This document shows, piece after piece, positions 8,200 to 47,190 of a DNA stretch of 47,190 nucleotides (position 1 is the stretch's first letter; each line of letters opens with the position of its first letter). Where the stretch lies: NCBI GenBank assembly GCA_025455485.1, contig JALOMJ010000008.1, positions 1 to 47,190 of the forward strand, written 5' to 3'. The notes beneath the pieces were generated by a model. The model made no database searches. It saw nothing but the letters and a program-made list of their open reading frames with translations, and had not been told where the DNA came from. Position numbers and translations under genes: made by a program. Origin of the DNA: Bacteroidia bacterium. GTDB taxonomy: Bacteria; Bacteroidota; Bacteroidia; B-17B0; Aurantibacillaceae.

Positions 8200-8661
8200 T
8201 TAATTTACTTTGTTATAATCCACGGAAGAGAGTTGTTCTCCGTTTTCATCCCAAGAGGTCCATACGCCGGATTTTTGACCATCGTTGTAATTCATCTCAA
8301 AGCGTTTATTGCCTTTATCGTCGAACACCAACCAAGTGCCGCTTTTTTTACCAGTGGTATAAAATGCAATGGCGGTAACGGAGCCGTTTTCGGAATAGCG
8401 GGTCCATTTCTGGTCTTTTTGTCCTTTGGTGAAAAAGCCGGACTCCATTAATGCGCCTGAGGCATAAAAATAAGAGGCTTCACCTTCAATTACACCGCTT
8501 TTAACCGTGAATTGAGATTTAGTATTATCTTGTACTTGAGAAATGGTTCCACTGAATAATTCACCTTCACTGTCAATGTAGAGTCCTTTATCGTTTAAAG
8601 TTTGAGCGTTCAAACATCCAAGGGCAAAAACGCTTGCGAAAATTAAAATGAGCTTTTTCAT
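8200..8661 (-). CDS. Secreted MORN-repeat-like (YwqK-type) protein
   Basis: 153 residues. A signal peptide ends near LNAQ. The rest carries about four degenerate MORN-type beta-hairpin units (SGALMESGFFTKGQKDQKW, ENGSVTAIAFYTTGKKSGTW, KGNKRFEMNYNDGQKSGVW, ENGEQLSSVDY), the pattern annotated as YwqK-family antitoxin or toxin_WG in many genomes. Despite that label, nothing nearby suggests a toxin partner. It is a monocistronic gene with its own terminator, and the product is periplasmic or surface-exposed. Its function is unknown. Confidence 0.8.
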   Translation of the reverse strand: MKKLILIFASVFALGCLNAQTLNDKGLYIDSEGELFSGTISQVQDNTKSQFTVKSGVIEGEASYFYASGALMESGFFTKGQKDQKWTRYSENGSVTAIAFYTTGKKSGTWLVFDDKGNKRFEMNYNDGQKSGVWTSWDENGEQLSSVDYNKVN

Positions 8662-38097: not shown

Positions 38098-38538
38098 GGA
38101 CATTCTATTTAGAACCACTAAATTCTGATGGCTAAAATCAAATTGCTTTAAAATTAGAATCACAAACGTTTCAGAAGAATCTTTTAATATAAAAATTAAA
38201 GGATTTGAGCAATGTAGTATGAAGTGAGAGAAGTAAATTTTTCCTCTGTAGATGAACCAAATACGGTATAAAAACACCTTCCCCACACTTTATTCGCTTG
38301 ATCCTACGGATGCTAAGCGTTTGATGCTTCATTGTAAAAACAAAATTCTTGTAAACATTTATTTTACAAGGCTTTAGGTGCTTTTGCTGTGAGTTCTTTA
38401 GTATTAGCTGCACTGATCCTATTTAGCAAGGTTTTTTGTTCTTGGAAGAATTTTAAGAATCTGTTTCCAAAGGATTGCTAAGAGGGATTATCTAACGATG
38501 ATCCCAGGGGGCATGTCAGGGTAGTAAATGCAAAAGGC

Positions 38539-38562
38539 AGCACCCTGCGGGTGTTGTTTTTT
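38539..38562 (+). terminator. Plus-strand terminator hairpin within the inverted-repeat element
   Basis: Eight-bp stem CAGCACCC/GGGTGTTG (one G-T pair) with a TGC loop, followed by six T residues. It would stop transcripts from the SpoIIE gene side. Confidence 0.6.
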
Positions 38563-38613
38563 AGTTTTGCTTCCGTTCACAGAAAGACTGCGTCTTTCGC
38601 TCACTGCAGCAAA

Positions 38614-38639
38614 ACAAAAAAGCCACGCTTTTGCGTGGC
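38614..38639 (-). terminator. Minus-strand terminator hairpin within the inverted-repeat element
   Basis: Stem GCCACGC/GCGTGGC with a four-base loop, followed on the minus strand by TTTTTTGTTTT. It would stop transcripts from the helix-turn-helix gene at 38845-39042. Confidence 0.7.
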
Positions 38640-38844
38640 CTTTTGCATTTACCCGTGATCCCGCTGGGAACTTAAACATCCTCTGAATATCACTATTTAC
38701 AAGGCTTTCGGAAGAAGCTTATTGCTTGCTAACCGAATTGTTGTAATAAAAATTACAGTTATTTGAAGCCATTTAAAGAACTAAATCGTGAAGTAAAAAT
38801 AGTACAGAGATGTACTAATTGCAAATAAATAATGACAAATTTTA

Positions 38845-39042
38845 TTACCTGATGATCTTGGTAATCTCCTCCTGGGTGATCCCAAAATAAATGCTGAGCT
38901 CGTTTATAGTGAGCAGCTGGTGACTCTCTTTTTTCAGCTTGACTTTGATCTTCCGGAGAAGGTTACGAGAGTATCGTTCACTTTTGCCTGTAAGAAGCAT
39001 GATGTCTTTGGGGTAAACACAAATTCGATTGGGAATGCTCAT
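38845..39042 (-). CDS. Small helix-turn-helix DNA-binding protein
   Basis: 65 residues, basic, with two helix-turn-helix-like stretches: YPKDIMLLTGKSERYSRNLL (split here by its turn at TGKSE) and LLTINELSIYFGITQEEI. Family not named. The start ATG at 39042 lies 16 bp from a perfect inverted repeat at 39059-39079, the expected place for an autoregulatory operator. The gene is followed by the minus-strand terminator inside the repeat element and lies next to the divergent nuclease/DUF5675 cassette. A regulatory role for the cassette is inference. Confidence 0.65.
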   Translation of the reverse strand: MSIPNRICVYPKDIMLLTGKSERYSRNLLRKIKVKLKKESHQLLTINELSIYFGITQEEITKIIR

Positions 39043-39058
39043 ACACTATCTATGCTTC

Positions 39059-39079
39059 ATCTATACACTTTGTATAGAT
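39059..39079. promoter_or_regulatory. Palindromic operator-like site
   Basis: ATCTATACA, a 3-bp spacer (CTT), then the exact reverse complement TGTATAGAT. It is centred 27 bp upstream of the small helix-turn-helix gene and about 138 bp upstream of the nuclease gene. A degenerate third half-site-like CATACACTATCTATG occurs at 39040-39054. Confidence 0.65.
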
Positions 39080-39194
39080 ATGACCTGAACAAAAGTAGTT
39101 TGACTTCCATTGGTAATCAATAGCAAAAACAACCCAAAACAGCACAAACATTATTAGAAGGGCATGCGCTGGTTAAAGCCTTCAGAGGCCACTC

Positions 39195-39202
39195 TATCTT
39201 TG
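39195..39202 (+). promoter_or_regulatory. -7 promoter element TATCTTTG of the nuclease cassette
   Basis: Perfect TAnnTTTG match four bases before the ATG at 39207, implying a leaderless first cistron. Confidence 0.6.
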
Positions 39203-39206
39203 TGGC

Positions 39207-39728
39207 ATGAAACACCTATTTCTGTTTTTTACTTGTTGTGTTTTACTTGCAAGTGCACAAAAACCTGCTTTGGTTACTCGTGTAGTGGATGGAGACACCT
39301 ACGATTTGTTTTACAACAGCAAACGGGTAAGGGTTCGGATTGCACACATTGATGCACCAGAGCTGAAGCAAGCTTTTGGAAAAGAAAGTGCATTGCAGGT
39401 AAACCAACTCCTTTACCGCAGAATAGTGATTTTTGATAGCCTGGGAAAAGACTTATACGGCCGTGTAGTCGGAAACCTGCTATTGAATGGTAAACGGGTT
39501 GACAGTTTACTGGTGAGATTTGGATTGGCATGGTACAAGCCCGCGTATGGAGAAGATCCCATCCTGGCCAGCTGCATGTTGTTAGCTGTGAATGAAGGTA
39601 AAGGACTTTGGGCATGTGGCGTTGAGGTGGTTTGTCCGCCGTGGCTTTACAGAACTTACAATTACGAAAACCGCTTGAGGTATTGCAGAGGGTGTTCAAT
39701 AAATAATCAATCAACCTTTAAAAATTAG
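39207..39728 (+). CDS. Secreted thermonuclease-family (SNase) nuclease
   Basis: Staphylococcal-nuclease fold enzyme that cuts DNA and RNA with calcium. 173 residues. A signal peptide ends near LASAQ, so it acts outside the inner membrane. Catalytic residues align with SNase: D30 (VVDGDT), R44, D49 and E52 (VRIAHIDAPE) and R86 (DLYGRVVG). A C-terminal extension (WACGVEVVCPPWLYR, then CRGCS) carries four Cys. It is the first gene of a cassette whose next gene starts 5 bp downstream. Confidence 0.9.
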   Translation: MKHLFLFFTCCVLLASAQKPALVTRVVDGDTYDLFYNSKRVRVRIAHIDAPELKQAFGKESALQVNQLLYRRIVIFDSLGKDLYGRVVGNLLLNGKRVDSLLVRFGLAWYKPAYGEDPILASCMLLAVNEGKGLWACGVEVVCPPWLYRTYNYENRLRYCRGCSINNQSTFKN

Positions 39729-39733
39729 GAACC

Positions 39734-40483
39734 ATGGCAAGACAACGTGGAATTATCAAACTGAAAGGTACTATCGGGGATATTACTTTTTACAAAACCC
39801 AGGACGGCAACCTGGCCCGTGAAAAAGGCGGGGTAGATGGAGATCGCATCGCAAACGACCCGGCCTTTGTGCGCACCCGTGAGAATGGGGCGGAATTTGG
39901 CTCAGCTGCTAGCGCTGGCAAACTCCTGAGGGATGCCATCCGGCCTATGCTGATGAGTGCTGGTGACAACCGTGTTGCCTCTCGACTCACACAGGTGATG
40001 ACGGAAATAAAAAATGAGGATACCACCTCAGCACGTGGACTGCGTAATGTGGGCGTGGCAATTGTAAACGCAACTGCCAAAGCTTTCCTAAAAGGCTTCA
40101 ACTTTAACATTCGTGCCATCCTTGGTGCGATTTTGTTTAAGCCTTACAACTTTACTGCAGGTACCGGTGTAATTACCATTGGGGGTTTGGTGCCCATCAA
40201 TGATATTGCTTTTCCTTCAGGTGCTACTCACATGACAGTGAAAGGTGCCTGGGCAAGGGTGGACTTTGCTACCGGACAAAGTGAGGTGCATCAAACCAAC
40301 GCAGTGAATGTGCCCATTGATGCCACACCAAACAACATGGTGCTAACCCCGGCAGCAGTGCCTGCAGGAGCAGGAACCGATTTGCATCTTTTGCAGATTG
40401 AGTTTTTTCAAGAAGTGAACGGCGTGCAGTACTCCCTTAAAAACGGAGCTTACAATGCACTGGCCATTGTAGAAGTGCCTTAA
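39734..40483 (+). CDS. Conserved MARQ-type protein of unknown function
   Basis: 249 residues with no signal peptide or transmembrane segment. The N-terminus MARQRGIIKLKGTIGDITF and the motif KGGVDGDRIANDPAFVRTRENG are recognisable from a Bacteroidota family I know only as hypothetical. The first half is helical and basic (AGKLLRDAIRPML, RLTQVMTEIK). The second half is beta-rich and Thr/Val-rich (VITIGGLVPINDIAFPSGATH, FFQEVNGVQYSLKNGAY). This two-part design, with many conserved Gly and Asn, would fit a self-assembling structural protein, but that is inference. It starts 5 bp after the nuclease gene behind an AGGA-type site and ends 1 bp before the DUF5675 gene. Confidence 0.8.
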   Translation: MARQRGIIKLKGTIGDITFYKTQDGNLAREKGGVDGDRIANDPAFVRTRENGAEFGSAASAGKLLRDAIRPMLMSAGDNRVASRLTQVMTEIKNEDTTSARGLRNVGVAIVNATAKAFLKGFNFNIRAILGAILFKPYNFTAGTGVITIGGLVPINDIAFPSGATHMTVKGAWARVDFATGQSEVHQTNAVNVPIDATPNNMVLTPAAVPAGAGTDLHLLQIEFFQEVNGVQYSLKNGAYNALAIVEVP

Positions 40484-40484
40484 G

Positions 40485-40919
40485 ATGGAACTGGAATTAT
40501 TACGGGAGTATTTTCCTGAAGGAACGAATGGAGAAATTTGGCATGATGGCAAGCTGATTTGTAAATCGATTGAGTTGCCCTGGAAAGAAAATGCCAGACG
40601 AATATCCTGCATACCGGAGGGTAAATACCCCGTGGTAATCAGTTGGCACAAAACATTTGGTTGGGTGTTGGCCTTACTTGATGTACCGGATAGAAAAGGC
40701 ATACTCATGCATGCAGCAAACAATGCCGGCAAGGAATTAAAAGGTTGTATTGGACCTGTAACACAAATTACCGGAGAGGGAAGTGGTACAAAATCTAAAA
40801 TTGCCTTGAAGAAAATTCTAAATCTACTTTGTGAAGAAGAGGAATCAGAAAATCATTTTATCACCATTAAAAGCAAAAATCATGAATCTATTACAACGAT
40901 TAAAGTCTCCAACGCCTAA
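40485..40919 (+). CDS. DUF5675-family protein
   Basis: 144 residues. Family hallmarks: LELLREYFPEGTNGEIW, CKSIELPWKENARRISCIPEG (broken here at the loop after KEN), LDVPDRKGILMHAANN and ELKGCIGPV. Its His76 (LMHAAN) and Cys88 (KGCIGP) resemble the His/Cys arrangement of YkuD-type L,D-transpeptidases (HG...SHGC), suggesting but not proving a peptidoglycan-acting enzyme. No signal peptide, so if it acts on the wall it needs help to cross the inner membrane. It starts 1 bp after the MARQ gene; the next gene overlaps its end by 38 bp. Confidence 0.82.
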   Translation: MELELLREYFPEGTNGEIWHDGKLICKSIELPWKENARRISCIPEGKYPVVISWHKTFGWVLALLDVPDRKGILMHAANNAGKELKGCIGPVTQITGEGSGTKSKIALKKILNLLCEEEESENHFITIKSKNHESITTIKVSNA

Positions 40920-41118
40920 ATTTTTTAAAGTGCTGAGGACTATTGGACTCAGTTTAGCAGCCGCGGGGGGTGCCTTGTTGGCGGCACCGGTAGCTTTACC
41001 GGTTGGACTGGTTAGCCTGGGCGGTTACCTCATTGTAGCTGGAAGTGTGGCCACAGCAGTAAGCCAAGCGGCGGTGAAGGGCGGAGATCCTAACGAACCA
41101 AAAACAGAGAACCCTTAA
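40882..41118 (+). CDS. Small two-helix membrane protein, holin-like
   Basis: 78 residues from the ATG at 40882; the frame is open to 40831, but the extension overlaps DUF5675 further and lacks a good start context. A basic N-terminus (RLKSPTPKFFKVLR) precedes two adjacent hydrophobic helices (IGLSLAAAGGALLAAPVAL and GLVSLGGYLIVAGSVATAV) and a charged tail. Size and topology match phage holins or pore-forming small proteins, with no sequence-level family match. It is part of the nuclease/DUF5675 cassette. Confidence 0.7.
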   Translation: MNLLQRLKSPTPKFFKVLRTIGLSLAAAGGALLAAPVALPVGLVSLGGYLIVAGSVATAVSQAAVKGGDPNEPKTENP

Positions 41119-41119
41119 G

Positions 41120-41323
41120 ATGGCTGAGACTGAAAAGAAGGATGATTTGTTCGTTCGGGTGAAAGCGACCAGGTCGCCGAAGCCAAAAACGGATACTGAA
41201 GGCAGTGATCAGGTGGAATCGATCGCGGTTGAGGTGAACCAAAGCGAAACAGCTGAAGGCCGGGTGATAGAACTCAACATTCATATTCAGGACAGATCAG
41301 TGAAACCACAAAACACGCATTAA
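41120..41323 (+). CDS. Small charged hypothetical protein of the cassette
   Basis: 67 residues, mainly charged and polar (KKDDLFVRVKATRSPKPK, then an acidic VESIAVEVNQSE stretch), without a signal peptide or transmembrane helix. No family recognised. It starts 1 bp after the two-helix protein and ends 7 bp before the next membrane protein, so it belongs to the same transcript. Its real-gene status rests mainly on that tight packing. Confidence 0.55.
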   Translation: MAETEKKDDLFVRVKATRSPKPKTDTEGSDQVESIAVEVNQSETAEGRVIELNIHIQDRSVKPQNTH

Positions 41324-41330
41324 ACAAAAG

Positions 41331-41510
41331 ATGTCAACCCAGCACCATATAGAAAGCGGCACAGTATTCGGCACTGTAACGGGCACGGCCTTAACCGTAG
41401 TTGCGAACATAGGTTCTCAAGATGTTATTAAGACAGTGATACTGGCTGCGATTGGTGCGGTGGTGAGTTTTGGGGTTTCATTGTTTTTGAAATGGATCTT
41501 TCGACGATAA
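41331..41510 (+). CDS. Small membrane protein (59 aa), holin-like
   Basis: Read directly from the sequence: ATG at 41331, stop at 41508-41510, 59 residues. Two hydrophobic segments (GTVFGTVTGTALTVVANIG, less hydrophobic, and VILAAIGAVVSFGVSLFL) and a basic C-terminus (KWIFRR), again like small holins. It is the last gene before a strong terminator, closing the cassette. Confidence 0.65.
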   Translation: MSTQHHIESGTVFGTVTGTALTVVANIGSQDVIKTVILAAIGAVVSFGVSLFLKWIFRR

Positions 41511-41534: not shown

Positions 41535-41567
41535 AAAAAGTCACTGAAAGGTGACTTTTTGTTTTTA
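41535..41567 (+). terminator. Rho-independent terminator of the nuclease cassette
   Basis: Ten-bp stem AAAAAGTCAC with GTGACTTTTT around a six-base loop, followed by GTTTTT. It begins 25 bp after the stop at 41510. Confidence 0.9.
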
Positions 41568-41734: not shown

Positions 41735-43384
41735 TTATTCTTTGATGAATTTAATCGATTCATTGATGCCATCTCCACTTATGGTGAACGTATAAAAGCC
41801 TGGTTTTAACTTTTGAACATCAAGTTCTGTTGAAATTTGTTTTAATTCTCCTTCAGCAAGGGTTTGACCTAATAAATTGAGAATTGAAAAATACAGCTGA
41901 CTCTTAATGTCAGGCACCATGACTACCAAATTACTTTGCACTGGGTTTGGATATAACTTTAACAGCATTTTATAATTTGGGTTTTCAGGAACGGCAACAG
42001 AAATACTAGCTGCTTTTGTAAGAAACATGTCAGAGAGACCTTGCAAAGTTGAGAGGGTATGGGTACCGAAAACCGTAGAGTTATCAAAAGAGCCGCCAAC
42101 ATATATTTCCCCTAAAGGGCCCACACTTAGCTGTGCTATTTCGTCGTTGAATTTTCCTCCACCTTGCAGTGCAGTGATGATTTGGCCATTACTGTTATAC
42201 CCAGCGAGAAAAACGTTTTGCGTAGTGCTATCGTTAGTAAGCGGAAATGATCCAACCATAACGGTTGAGCCTTTGTAGTTTCCACACACATATACATTAT
42301 TGTTGTAATCCATAGCAATATCTTTGCTCCAAGTGTACTCGCTGCCTCCTTCATTTGTAGCCCAAAGAACATTTCCATTGCTATCATATTTGGCTAGAAA
42401 GTAATTTGTACCAGTGGTTGAAAGTGTATGAGTGTCAATTATGACACCAGGTGCACTGAAAGTTCCGCAAAAATAAGAGTTCCCTGATGCATCTGTTGTG
42501 AGTGCGCCAGGATGAACCATGTTGTTTATTGGATTGACTTTTTTTACCCAAATATTCTGACCAGAGTTCGAAAATTTTGCTGTATAGCCACAGTAATTGG
42601 TGCTGGTTGGGGCACCAGAAATCGTATTTGTTCCAAAACTTAAGGTGTTGCTATTGAAACCGCCGCTAATAAAGATATCACCTGATTGAGAGAGGTCAAT
42701 CGAATTGGCATAATCAGACGCCGGACCTCCACTTTTTGTGGCCCACAGAAGGTTACCAGCAATATCGAATTTCATCATAAAAATATCTTCCAAACCAGAC
42801 GAAACTAAGGTAGAACTCTCAATAACAAGAGGTGCATTATCAGAAAATACTCCGGCAAGGTATATGCCACTGTTGTCTGAGGTAATTTTACAGTTAGTTG
42901 CAGAACCTGAAGAAGAAGATTTTACCCAGACTATATTCCCCTGAGCATTCATTTTCATAATAAAGAATTGAAAAAAACTTGAATTGGTTACTGTAAATCC
43001 GCCAATTGCCATTGAGGGGCTTCCAATAATCCCTGCCACATAGATATCACCCGAAGCATCAACAGCAAGGTCAGTGAAACCATCGCTCCCGTTGCCGCCG
43101 GCGAATAAACTCCACATTGCTGCCCCGGTTCCATCTACTTTAAACATAAAACCGTCTGAAAAAACATTATTACTAGTGGAGGAGAAGGAACCAAAGCTCA
43201 AAGTATTTGAATAGGCTCCTACCATATAAGCGTTTCCGTTCTGGTCATTGGCGAGGCCAGAGATTTGTGGTAAACTGCCACCAGTGGAATTCTCAGCCCA
43301 GACCCAGTTTGTAGTTTGGCATATTAGAGTTGTATAGGTAATAGAATATACCAGAACTAATATTAATACTCTTAGTTTAAACAT
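41735..43384 (-). CDS. Secreted T9SS beta-propeller protein with SBBP-type repeats
   Basis: 549 residues. A signal peptide (MFKLRVLILVLVYSI) leads to a series of about seven repeats of roughly 55 residues (DQNGNAYMVGAYSN, DASGDIYVAGIIGS, DNSGIYLAGVFSD, SQSGDIFISGGFNSN, DASGNSYFCGTFSA, DYNNNVYVCGNYKG, GPLGEIYVGGSFDN), the SBBP pattern of beta-propellers. A type A T9SS sorting domain follows (LYPNPVQSNLVV to SIKFIKE). It is surface or secreted cargo. A second T9SS gene lies upstream on the same strand, 91 bp away. Confidence 0.87.
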   Translation of the reverse strand: MFKLRVLILVLVYSITYTTLICQTTNWVWAENSTGGSLPQISGLANDQNGNAYMVGAYSNTLSFGSFSSTSNNVFSDGFMFKVDGTGAAMWSLFAGGNGSDGFTDLAVDASGDIYVAGIIGSPSMAIGGFTVTNSSFFQFFIMKMNAQGNIVWVKSSSSGSATNCKITSDNSGIYLAGVFSDNAPLVIESSTLVSSGLEDIFMMKFDIAGNLLWATKSGGPASDYANSIDLSQSGDIFISGGFNSNTLSFGTNTISGAPTSTNYCGYTAKFSNSGQNIWVKKVNPINNMVHPGALTTDASGNSYFCGTFSAPGVIIDTHTLSTTGTNYFLAKYDSNGNVLWATNEGGSEYTWSKDIAMDYNNNVYVCGNYKGSTVMVGSFPLTNDSTTQNVFLAGYNSNGQIITALQGGGKFNDEIAQLSVGPLGEIYVGGSFDNSTVFGTHTLSTLQGLSDMFLTKAASISVAVPENPNYKMLLKLYPNPVQSNLVVMVPDIKSQLYFSILNLLGQTLAEGELKQISTELDVQKLKPGFYTFTISGDGINESIKFIKE

Positions 43385-43474
43385 TGTCTAATAACGATAA
43401 TATTGTAAAAATAGTATATTAAGAATAAAGAGCGAAAGGCGTTCCTTTCACTCTTATTAAGGACACCAAATCGT

Positions 43475-45826
43475 TCACTTTACAATGTCAATTTTTCCGT
43501 CTGCTTGAAAACTTGAAGAACTTACTTTCCAGAAGTAGATGCCTGAATCTAAGGCTGACAAATCTACATTGATATTATGTTCCCCTTCTGAAAGTATTAT
43601 GTTTGAGGCAACAATCTTCACGAGCTTGCCACTATAATCATAGAAGTTAATATCGAAGTTGTCAGCTTTAAGGTTATTGATCTTAATTTTGACCTGATCA
43701 TTGGCAGGTACAGGGAAAACAGTTACAAAATTCACAAACTTATTTGTTTCCTCCCCTAAATTAGTAAGGACAGTTCTGGAATAAGCATCGTCAATGTATA
43801 AGTAGGTCCATTCGGAAGATGAACTGCAAGGATTACTGAGTGTAACCGTCAGTTTGTAGTACTTACCCACCAGCGTCGGGCCATTATATGAGAAGTAGGA
43901 TTTATATCCGCTGTAACTGGAAGGGTTTGCAACACTGCATGCTGTTGTAGGAGGGCTTCCGCCCCAAACAGAACTTGGAACGCAATAACCGTTGAGGTTT
44001 TCGTATGTTAGGCCAGACAAATTTGGTACAGCTTTAGTTTCATTTAAGATATTCCCTATATATGTGCCAGAGCTGTTGACTTCATCAACTATAACATTCA
44101 TTAAAGAAACGTTACCTGTGCTTCCGCTTACCCTGAAGCCAATAGATGAGGCACCTACATTGTTTGGAGAGCCAATACTGTGTGAGTAACTAAAATAATT
44201 TTGTGGATTATTGTAATCGTAAATTTGAAGACTGATTGACGGGGGTACCTGAGCTAAGACGCGAATATAAGTTGTCATGCTAGACTCACGCCCGCAGCAA
44301 TCGATAATAGTTAGTGTAACTTGGTAATAGCCTGGGTAAGTATAAAGAGATTGTTCATATTCATCATAAGAATCTCTGATATCCAAATTGTTTATTGCAC
44401 CACTACCTGCTGCTGACAATACACTACCATAGTAACTGAATGTCCCGGGACCGCCTATTGGCTCGCAATCGACGTTCATGGGAGTTAGGGTTAAATTGGC
44501 CTCACAAGGGCTTACTCCATCAATAAAAGTTGCGCTGAGTTTAATCGGATTGCAGTTGTACACTTCTTGCCAAACGCCATTACAGGTATTGCTTGCTGCT
44601 GTTCCGTTTATAGTCATGCCGGTGAGAGTCACTACAGGGTTACCAGCGAAGTTTGTATAATTTTCCCCATCAAGTTGATCAGGTAAGGTATATACGCCCG
44701 CTGAAATCGAGTTATAAGCAAGGGATTCATAACTTGTTGTGTTGGAGTTGGGGTTTACATTATTCATTTGTGTGGCGTTTACCACACTGGACGTTACGTC
44801 ATATTCGATTAAATAACGATTCCCGGCGTAGTCTCCAATTCCGCAAACCTGCCCGCTTTTTGAATACTCAAGGAAAGAGTTAGGAAGAGAGTACGGAGAG
44901 ATATTCAATGCGGTTTGGCTACTTGAGGTAACGTTACACAAATCGAAGAAAGGTGTACCTGACACGTTTCCAGCTACGTATAAATCTGGGGTACCAGAAC
45001 CTACTAATTCAAGACCAACAACTTCACCACCAGTATATGAGTAAACTAATTCAGAGCTCGCAGCATATGTGCTTGCATTTGACAGATTAAGTACTGCAAC
45101 TTTACCTGTTAGCGCATCATTGAATGCCAACCATAAGCCATTTTCCGAAAGTTCCAGTTCTGTAGGGAGACAACCGATGCTACCAGTATAACCGATACTA
45201 CTTGGAGAACTAATGCCGCTTGAACTAATGACACAATGTTTAATTTCCGATGTACCTACAGAAGGTTGATATACATAGTAAAGCTCATAAGTTGAACTCG
45301 CTCCAGAGCCCGTTTTTTTTGAAACAGCAATACCTGCACCATTGTATGTTAGATTTTCTACAACAAAGGCAGAACCGGAATTGGAAATTATTGATGGTGT
45401 AGTAGATGAACAATCGACTATAATGTAAACAACTGCTGTTCCCGTCATATTTGGATTACTTCTGTTATAAAAGACATAATACTTATCACACTCCCCCGGC
45501 ATTGGCACAATTACGATTTCACCTCCCCACCTGTTATATGAATTTCCTCCATTGGAGTGTGTACCTAGTTGACTGATTGTGCTACCAGTTGCATCAAAAA
45601 CATAATCGTCAACAACGTAAAACCTTAGGTTACCGTTTAAATCATAAACACCGTTAGATACAAAATAGCTTCCAGAACTGGGAGCCCCTGTATATAAAGA
45701 GTTAATTGAGGCAGGGCTAGAACTTACGTCAAATGTCTTAGGGGGCATTGCCCATTTATTCATTTGAGAATAAAGCCCTAAGCTAAAAAGGAATAGGGCA
45801 AACAAAGTTATAATCTTTTTTTTCAT
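43475..45826 (-). CDS. Large secreted T9SS protein with propeller-like N-terminal region
   Basis: 783 residues from the ATG at 45826, where a textbook signal peptide begins (KKKIITLFALFLFSLGLYSQ, with K/I run split by its core); the frame is open to 45880 but adds only polar residues. The N-terminal half (about 30-370) has propeller-like strands (GGEIVIVPMPGECDKYYVFY, then SENGLWLAFNDALTGKVAVL). A beta-rich Ser/Thr/Asn-rich middle follows, with CGRESSMTTYIRVLA. A type A T9SS sorting domain (VFPVPANDQVKIKI to KIDIVK) ends it. A long intergenic region lies upstream. Confidence 0.85.
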   Translation of the reverse strand: MKKKIITLFALFLFSLGLYSQMNKWAMPPKTFDVSSSPASINSLYTGAPSSGSYFVSNGVYDLNGNLRFYVVDDYVFDATGSTISQLGTHSNGGNSYNRWGGEIVIVPMPGECDKYYVFYNRSNPNMTGTAVVYIIVDCSSTTPSIISNSGSAFVVENLTYNGAGIAVSKKTGSGASSTYELYYVYQPSVGTSEIKHCVISSSGISSPSSIGYTGSIGCLPTELELSENGLWLAFNDALTGKVAVLNLSNASTYAASSELVYSYTGGEVVGLELVGSGTPDLYVAGNVSGTPFFDLCNVTSSSQTALNISPYSLPNSFLEYSKSGQVCGIGDYAGNRYLIEYDVTSSVVNATQMNNVNPNSNTTSYESLAYNSISAGVYTLPDQLDGENYTNFAGNPVVTLTGMTINGTAASNTCNGVWQEVYNCNPIKLSATFIDGVSPCEANLTLTPMNVDCEPIGGPGTFSYYGSVLSAAGSGAINNLDIRDSYDEYEQSLYTYPGYYQVTLTIIDCCGRESSMTTYIRVLAQVPPSISLQIYDYNNPQNYFSYSHSIGSPNNVGASSIGFRVSGSTGNVSLMNVIVDEVNSSGTYIGNILNETKAVPNLSGLTYENLNGYCVPSSVWGGSPPTTACSVANPSSYSGYKSYFSYNGPTLVGKYYKLTVTLSNPCSSSSEWTYLYIDDAYSRTVLTNLGEETNKFVNFVTVFPVPANDQVKIKINNLKADNFDINFYDYSGKLVKIVASNIILSEGEHNINVDLSALDSGIYFWKVSSSSFQADGKIDIVK

Positions 45827-46590
45827 ACTATTGGCATTAGTTTGCCTACTCTTGTTAGGGTTTTCGGCGATCCCCTTCAATATATATTTCCTGAGTTCTC
45901 TTTAGTATTACAAATAGTTTGCATTAATATCAGATCTTACAAACCTTTTTCTCGACTTTGACAATTGTGTCCTATTTTGTGACTATCAATATTAAATTTG
46001 CACCTTTTCAATACAAAATGATTTGGAATCATGGTTAGGAGCCATTGTAGGTTCACGCTTATAAGGTTTACCCACGAGTTAGTTGGGCGAACTTGGTAAC
46101 ACATAATATTTATGTATACGTGCACTAGGGATACACGCGATATTTACAATAGTTTATCATAACAAAGAATTTGGGACTAATGTAAGACCACCACCTGCAT
46201 TGAAACTTAAGTAATAGAATGGCAATTCTAGTACCGGGATAAGAAATTTACCCGTTTCGGATTTAATGGGGGAAGGCCCTTTAAGAATATGAGAATGTTA
46301 AACTGCATTAAGTAATTTGTTAATAATGAATCTAAAGCATTAACTATGAGAAGCATACGAACAAATAGAAGAAAACTCTGTTAGAGAACTATTTAATGTA
46401 GAGACAGGAAAAGAATGAAAAGAGAAGCGTTAAAATTGAGAGTAATTTCAAAACAAAATTAGGTAGAACTACCTGTAAGAAAGAGTAAAATTACCTATAT
46501 ATAGACTAGGTATAATTACCTATGGCCTGTTAAAAAATCAGGCACATTATGATTGAGATAACGAAATAACTTTCGTTTTTGGGAAACTGA
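45827..46590. other. 764-bp intergenic region without a supported gene
   Basis: AT-rich, stops in all frames, no convincing short gene. It contains the cluster of TAGGTA/TACCTA motifs at 46460-46522 and a small GCCTG/CAGGC hairpin right after it (46525-46543) that lacks a T tail. Confidence 0.6.
46460..46522. promoter_or_regulatory. Cluster of TAGGTA/TACCTA operator-like motifs
   Basis: AGGTAG-AA-CTACCT (46461-46474) is a perfect palindrome. TACCTA recurs at 46492 and 46517 and TAGGTA at 46507, forming further inverted pairs with 9- and 4-bp spacers. It looks like a multi-site binding region for a dimeric protein. Confidence 0.5.
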
Positions 46591-47025
46591 TCAGGACTGT
46601 TTTTTGAGCATTTTTTGTACCATAAGCTGACGAACCTGATGTATGAGGGTAAACTGCTTTTTGAGGGATTCTTCCTGTTTATCAAGTTCGTTGAAGTAGT
46701 GGATGATTTTTACCAGCTTATCAGGAGCTTGGTTGAGGTTGATGTTTGCATGGTGCAAAGCCATTGTGAATTCATCTATACGGATGTAAGGAATGACTGA
46801 ACCAATGAGTAGAGGGCGAAAGTAGCCACCCACCCAAAGTGCCTTACAAAGTGTGTAGAAGTGTTCACGTTCTCTGTAAGAATCTGCCAGGAAAACAAAG
46901 CAATTGGGGCACCAGTTGGCTAATGGTTTACCGGTGTTAAGGCCTTTGTTCAGGATAAAGAAGTGTGGTTGCTGGTACAAGTTGCCGTACCTGTGGCATT
47001 TGATTTTGTTTTGTAATGCATTCAT
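46591..47025 (-). CDS. DUF6943-like protein of unknown function
   Basis: 144 residues. The core FFILNKGLNTGKPLANWCPNCF (split at its turn after KGL) and the later LCKALWVGGYFRPLLIG with SVIPYIRIDEF match what I recall of the Bacteroidota DUF6943 family. A CPNC pair could bind metal. The C-terminal third is a charged helix (LVKIIHYFNELDKQEESLKK). No signal peptide. Members tend to sit in accessory regions, consistent with its place beyond two T9SS genes. The family name is from memory, not a search. Confidence 0.6.
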   Translation of the reverse strand: MNALQNKIKCHRYGNLYQQPHFFILNKGLNTGKPLANWCPNCFVFLADSYREREHFYTLCKALWVGGYFRPLLIGSVIPYIRIDEFTMALHHANINLNQAPDKLVKIIHYFNELDKQEESLKKQFTLIHQVRQLMVQKMLKKQS

Positions 47026-47112: not shown

Positions 47113-47180
47113 GACAAGCGAGCCGGAAAAAAGCTAAAAAAGAAAGCTTTTTTGGATAAGCTTGGCGGTGCGCGCTTGTC
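47113..47180. repeat. Inverted repeat GACAAGCG near window end
   Basis: GACAAGCG at 47113-47120 and CGCTTGTC at 47173-47180 are separated by 52 bp. That spacer itself contains AAGCT/AGCTT repeats and A/T tracts. It lies upstream of the DUF6943-like gene. Function unknown, and the window ends before its context is clear. Confidence 0.4.
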
Positions 47181-47190
47181 AAGGTTTTTG

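Follow-up and report, generated by a model that had tools for sequence, protein, structure and literature searches.

Genomic islands and integrative mobilizable elements that insert at tRNA genes by means of tyrosine recombinases have been reviewed (PMC5704250), and release systems resembling type 10 secretion are known elsewhere as well (PMC9527704, PMC10847048). Here, we analysed a locus that resembles both in part. It lies in a stretch of 47,190 bp, called the window below (positions 1 to 47,190 of contig JALOMJ010000008.1, assembly GCA_025455485.1, a Bacteroidia bacterium of the Aurantibacillaceae), and consists of six packed genes that diverge from a small helix-turn-helix (HTH) gene. An earlier note had described positions 38845 to 41510 as a possible lysis or release module outside a phage. 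In our analysis, the cassette is probably the end module of a tRNA-integrated genomic island of Bacteroidota. The order of the unit, namely a tRNA-derived core, the HTH gene with 11-bp repeats, the operon of the MARQ protein, cargo, DUF6943 and a terminal hairpin (EL), recurs in many genomes. The following features were found in the window; where needed, genomes, contigs and loci are cited by our own G, C and L numbers.

38613-38645, minus strand: terminator-like hairpin outside the core, as after a tRNA gene (read on the reverse complement)
38655-38669, plus strand: core resembling an attachment (att) site, GTGATCCCGCTGGGA, a 15-mer that corresponds, in reverse complement, to the final 15 nt of tRNA-Lys; only match in the window, some 180 bp beyond the HTH gene
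38845-39042, minus strand: HTH protein, 65 amino acids, divergent from the operon, near-obligate partner of MARQ
39047-39066, no strand: two 11-bp-spaced direct repeats, TATCTATGC and CATCTATAC, probable operator
39195-39202, plus strand: -7 promoter box of Bacteroidota type, TATCTTTG, 4 bp ahead of the SNase ATG (read from the sequence)
39207-39728, plus strand: SNase-family nuclease with apparent signal peptide (PF00565, E 9e-15)
39734-40483, plus strand: MARQ protein, 249 amino acids, six copies in the genome
40485-40919, plus strand: DUF5675, modelled L,D-transpeptidase fold (PF18925, E 1.6e-28)
40882-41118, plus strand: TM1, small membrane protein, 78 amino acids, overlapping DUF5675, with relatives in phage lysis regions
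41120-41323, plus strand: small acidic protein, 67 amino acids, differing between loci
41331-41510, plus strand: TM2, small membrane protein, 59 amino acids
About 41538-41566: terminator-like hairpin 3' of TM2
41735-45880, minus strand: cargo slot, occupied by a pair of large proteins (41735-43384 and 43475-45880); secretion and type 9-like sorting tails judged by eye
46591-47025, minus strand: DUF6943 (PF22105, E 3.5e-41)
47176-47190, plus strand: left arm of the terminal hairpin EL, inside which the contig ends

The island reading starts from the core. Of 86 HTH loci, 14, the window included, have it at a distance of 186-242 bp on the outer side of the HTH gene when up to three mismatches are allowed, against 0.75 expected from random segments, and the flanks of these loci are otherwise unrelated. 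The only other exact copy in the genome is the 3' end of a tRNA-Lys(TTT) gene on contig C125, in the same relative orientation. This tRNA gene is adjoined by a tyrosine recombinase (C125:25847-27112) with arm-binding, SAM-like and catalytic domains (PF17293/PF13102/PF00589). Furthermore, the last 99 bp of the window recur without a mismatch, in reverse complement, at the end of C125, which carries the rest of EL. Taken together, the overlap, the core and the recombinase imply an island integrated at a tRNA gene, across a contig join that we infer. If the join is true, the island would extend over about 55 kb from 38655 to the tRNA-Lys of C125, bounded on both sides by directly repeated copies of the core and with the recombinase next to one att site. 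The earlier note had reported neither integrase nor capsid nor tail genes with the cassette; the window itself is indeed free of an integrase, but the island as a whole probably has one at its far end. Virion or conjugation genes (relaxase, type IV secretion) were not recognised among the listed open reading frames of C125, ten of which were scanned with Pfam. The island so delimited would contain a type IIG restriction enzyme, a GmrSD-type protein, a PLD-type nuclease, DUF2971 and a PD-T4-10-like protein.

Other loci show a comparable setting. Of 98 loci scanned, 14 have a tRNA or tmRNA gene no more than 1 kb from the left end, with few elsewhere in the same loci, and integrases cluster 1-2 kb upstream (7/15). 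At seven loci without the HTH gene, a tRNA 3' end was found 283-382 bp from the MARQ start, the tRNAs being Glu, Lys, Asp, Phe, Glu, Met and Leu. The recurring core, the tRNA adjacency, the integrase on C125, the 99-bp overlap, the order with DUF6943, the defence-type cargo and, as described below, the 11-bp repeats, the lysis-type character of DUF5675 and TM1 and the purifying selection all support the island. Two side observations concern the genome of the window: partial copies of the hairpin region 38519-38660 occur elsewhere in it, and large neighbouring secreted proteins inside the island (G000:C125:34712-46362), two of them starting with MKLRVFYSFASLILFIS, resemble tandem paralogues.

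The unit does not end with TM2 at 41510, where the earlier note had placed its limit, since it continues through the cargo to DUF6943 and the terminal hairpin. Whenever DUF6943 and MARQ occur together, DUF6943 is downstream and convergent (42 matches in 41 loci), often about 50 bp after TM2; otherwise cargo lies between the two. Elsewhere this slot holds AbiE, AbiTii, Abi_2, TIR with DUF2971, NB-ARC/TPR, Fic or a GH108 endolysin. EL was found in fixed orientation in about 54 loci, located beyond DUF6943 or, if DUF6943 is missing, after the MARQ operon, and is followed by a promoter-like TTGACCTTG..TAnnTTTG; in nine loci no Rfam family matched this hairpin. One of these loci is L062 (EL at 8264-8455). 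Among viral contigs (L271 and L272), EL was seen in one of a tailed phage and next to a Fic/HsdR island. A conserved open reading frame of 78 amino acids (YAFNRYLRKSxFxHSP) lies between TM2 and DUF6943 in L036, L037, L064 and L074. The only strong flank repeat found, at L063, was rejected as an att site because it is the relic of a second AbiE operon: the relic, with an internal deletion, lies to the left of the cassette (L063:5005-5239), and an intact AbiE to its right.

Within the cassette, the six-gene packing and the divergent HTH gene stand exactly as first described, with successive gaps of 5 and 1 bp, an overlap, and gaps of 1 and 7 bp. Likewise, the nuclease and DUF5675 were confirmed by their Pfam matches, and family searches gave no match for MARQ, TM1, TM2, the acidic protein or the HTH protein. 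A leaderless promoter and a strong terminator had also been proposed. Because the -7 box lies only 4 bp before the ATG, a leaderless transcript of the SNase operon is plausible from the sequence, and the box is kept in the second cassette copy of the genome; at the other end, a terminator-like hairpin follows TM2. This second copy, on contig C162, matches window positions 38817-41499 at 80% DNA identity. Between the two copies, the ratio of nonsynonymous to synonymous substitution rates (dN/dS) is 0.02-0.17 across the genes at a synonymous divergence (dS) of about 0.75-2; for MARQ and TM1, it is 0.023 and 0.016, respectively, at dS of about 1 to 1.5. Therefore, both copies are old and maintained by selection. 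The cassette is thus a real unit beyond chance, under strong purifying selection.

The HTH gene is closely tied to MARQ. The two occur together in 27 of the 28 sampled genomes that carry the HTH gene, and they are almost always transcribed divergently. Direct repeats of about TATCTATRC with a spacing of exactly 11 bp lie between the two genes in 47 of 68 regions compared, against a mean of about 2 in shuffled sequences; 84 repeat pairs are spaced at 11 bp, 40 at 22 and 14 at 33. These repeats are probably the operator, and their phasing would suit cooperative binding of a small protein to one face of the DNA. The palindromic site proposed by the earlier note, TCTATACA-CTT-TGTATAGA, is present at 39060-39078, but what other loci conserve is the 11-bp tandem direct repeats. 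By its size, its position at the att end and the repeats, the HTH protein may be an Xis-like excision factor. Other tandem repeats occur between tRNA and MARQ at the HTH-less loci L033, L036, L061, L062, L091, L095 and L098; the period of the repeats at these left ends, such as AGGTAAAACATAGGTAAAACAT, is also about 11 bp. In a contig from the viral collection (L207:1-1906), the HTH gene diverges from an SNase gene on one side and, on the other, converges with a tyrosine recombinase at a distance of 14 bp.

At least 566 stretches of Bacteroidota genome contigs hold a MARQ relative, as do 35 of the 392 Bacteroidota genomes sampled, but none was found in the 50,697 phage records and 2.9 million viral contigs searched. 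The possibility that MARQ is a known phage tail or head protein, which would have undermined the original proposal, was not borne out in these collections. The suggested co-occurrence of MARQ with DUF5675 and SNase across Bacteroidota was not supported either: TM1/TM2 and acidic proteins are frequent partners of HTH and MARQ, DUF5675 is occasional and SNase rare. Many HTH-MARQ loci have no lysis gene, and in several marine Flavobacteriaceae the pair stands without any other cassette gene. Hence, the obligate pair of HTH and MARQ is the core of the cassette, to which the lysis-type genes are attached.

Several individual genomes deviate in their arrangement. In G030, ten dispersed, shortened MARQ genes (L046-L055) lie in elements of about 890 bp each with terminal inverted repeats GGATCAGGCTCAAAAG..., which also bound an insertion sequence (IS) of 1.43 kb whose transposase resembles ISL3 by eye. 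Because the MARQ element and the IS have identical terminal repeats, MARQ seems to ride there as a passenger of a non-autonomous IS. A transposon reading of the window was rejected, as such inverted repeats were not found around the window or the other cassettes. In G001, two cassettes (L029 and L030) are mosaic, with dS of 0.14-0.19 for DUF5675 and TM2 and 2.4 for MARQ; near-identical DUF5675 and TM2 beside distant MARQ genes suggest gene conversion between islands. L066:3633-7201 holds two head-to-head cassettes with facing HTH genes, an inverted duplication that includes DUF6943.

The attached genes point towards phages. The model of DUF5675 matched 34 L,D-transpeptidase (Ldt)-type entries at Z scores of 7.0-9.0, with the next entry at 3.2, and LdtMt1/YkuD stood at Z 8-9. 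It thus has the modelled fold of the L,D-transpeptidases (YkuD) and shares with them H76 and G87-C88, which are kept in most members. It differs from these enzymes in being a single small domain of predicted activity that gave no Pfam YkuD match up to E 1. Contigs of Bacteroidota phages carry relatives of TM1 in their lysis regions; the neighbours there are a small membrane protein with weak similarity to holin superfamily III and, in many contigs, an M15 peptidase. TM1 itself matched no holin family in the searches. The order of DUF5675 and TM1 in the window, with their overlap, is also seen in one phage contig (L174). DUF5675 and TM1 are of phage-lysis type; to lysis or permeabilisation as the putative effect of the operon, we would give somewhat less than even odds. 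The likeness to a phage lysis module, noted at the outset, hence holds for these two genes and their order, but many loci lack lysis genes.

These relatives, together with the EL hairpin in one tailed-phage contig, could also suggest that the cassette is the remnant of a decayed tailed prophage. We consider this very improbable, because MARQ is missing from phage records, neither MARQ nor TM2 was found in the viral contigs searched and the HTH gene was found there only once. In addition, all genes are under purifying selection in the two copies, and the gene order is repeated in many genera without virion genes. The secreted nuclease could likewise hint at DNA uptake or at digestion of extracellular DNA. 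SNase opens the operon in the window, as it does at a few further loci, and has retained catalytic-type residues, with the equivalents of thermonuclease R35, D40, E43 and R87 aligned. Its absence from nearly all other loci and the lack of an adjoining competence gene make such a unit extremely unlikely.

The MARQ protein itself was modelled by AlphaFold2 with a mean predicted local distance difference test score (pLDDT) of 87, showing an N-terminal hairpin, helices and an immunoglobulin (Ig)-like C-terminal sandwich. In the fold search, the C-terminal half gave weak Ig/FN3-type matches (best Z 6.0), and the N-terminal part gave no match, which is no proof of a new fold. MARQ is probably a sister of DUF6266 (PF19781), to which it is similar in length and architecture and with which its N-terminal region aligns in register. 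The profile-profile comparison of this region, across 91 columns, gave a score of 30.9 (P 8e-4), compared to 24.1 for the best of 60 column-shuffled decoys, and DUF6266 genes lie near MARQ and its HTH gene in G129, G278 and G297. The two families differ in that none of 18 MARQ proteins matched PF19781 above the Pfam threshold and that their C-terminal parts gave no significant alignment.

The C-terminal half of MARQ is also the more variable one, with 46% mean pairwise identity compared to 58-61% in the N-terminal parts. Together with the acidic proteins, which vary between loci, and the mosaic cassettes of G001, this would be in line with a bacteriocin or contact-toxin unit in which MARQ is the toxin, the acidic protein its immunity partner and the membrane proteins serve for release. 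Yet the C-terminal half is a single Ig-like fold and not a set of swapped toxin domains, the acidic or release genes are missing at many loci, and the dN/dS of MARQ between the two copies is as low as reported above. Such a toxin is therefore very unlikely, and neither for it nor for competence or DNA uptake, all of which had been considered initially, did we find evidence.

The main rival is a release system owned by the host and similar to type 10 secretion, in which a leaderless MARQ is let out by TM1/TM2 and DUF5675 and the island is incidental. This putative function is compatible with the island setting. The gene order MARQ-DUF5675-TM1-TM2, which many lineages share together with the overlapping starts, the Ldt fold of the DUF5675 model, the TM1 relatives in phage lysis regions and the existence of such systems elsewhere speak for it. 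However, many MARQ loci have neither wall enzyme nor membrane genes, G030 has ten solitary MARQ genes, and the release activity is a prediction. All in all, we regard it as fairly unlikely.

It must be mentioned that several findings weigh against an island. The core is absent from 72 of the 86 HTH loci, most of which have no tRNA or integrase nearby. In 10 of 11 tRNA-adjacent loci, neither an excised form nor, to the right within 7 kb, a second copy of the tRNA 3' end was found; in the eleventh (L083), the copy is located between tRNA and HTH gene. A single 99-bp overlap connects the two contigs; assemblers leave such overlaps at branch points, so that another successor is possible. An enrichment of defence genes in the cargo is putative, as are the fold of the HTH protein and the lysis activity. 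Finally, some HTH-MARQ loci of marine Flavobacteriaceae share their neighbours across species, which suggests vertical inheritance there.

If the cassette is nevertheless the end module of an island, as we think probable, the following mechanism can be proposed. The island would move by recombination at the tRNA gene, with the integrase at the tRNA end and the HTH gene with its repeats at the opposite end. The HTH protein would bind the repeats as repressor and/or excision factor, so that excision and transcription of the MARQ operon would be linked. This operon would then provide MARQ together with a phage-type set for opening the envelope, i.e. DUF5675, TM1, TM2 and, in the window, the secreted nuclease. 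By permeabilising or lysing the cell, this set may allow MARQ or island DNA to escape, and the cargo, often defence genes, would be exchanged between TM2 and DUF6943. A bolder version assumes a distinct class of capsid-less integrative elements, in which the HTH protein on its 11-bp repeats couples excision to an operon of MARQ and lysis genes, the element or MARQ exits through the opened host, and end module and hairpin bracket an exchangeable defence slot; this we consider unlikely.

MARQ, the HTH gene with 11-bp repeats, DUF6943, the terminal hairpin and the tRNA-derived core form a searchable signature, which marks what looks like an undescribed island family. The module also marks a place to look for uncharacterised anti-phage cargo, and it makes testable why phage-type lysis genes ride at the end of a non-viral element. 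Moreover, it gives context to DUF5675, DUF6266 and DUF6943, families of unknown function; in the literature searched, we found no mention of DUF6266 or DUF6943, and DUF5675 is mentioned in passing by two papers.

Compared to the lysis cassettes of Bacteroidota phages, the locus shares the TM1 family and the overlap and order of DUF5675 and TM1 in L174, but a context of MARQ, TM2 and DUF6943 was not seen in viral contigs, and the cassette is not next to tail genes. With type 10 secretion it has in common that a leaderless protein is encoded next to phage-derived genes for membrane proteins and a wall enzyme; here, holin and secretion are putative, the wall enzyme is optional and no spanin was identified. 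Given the contig join, the locus shares with tRNA-integrated islands and integrative mobilizable elements the tRNA 3'-end core as direct repeat, the integrase next to the tRNA and the variable restriction and defence cargo. Differing from them in that no conjugation or virion gene was seen among the open reading frames examined, the locus adds to the known scheme a fixed end module that consists of the HTH gene with its 11-bp repeats, MARQ, the lysis-type genes, DUF6943 and the hairpin.

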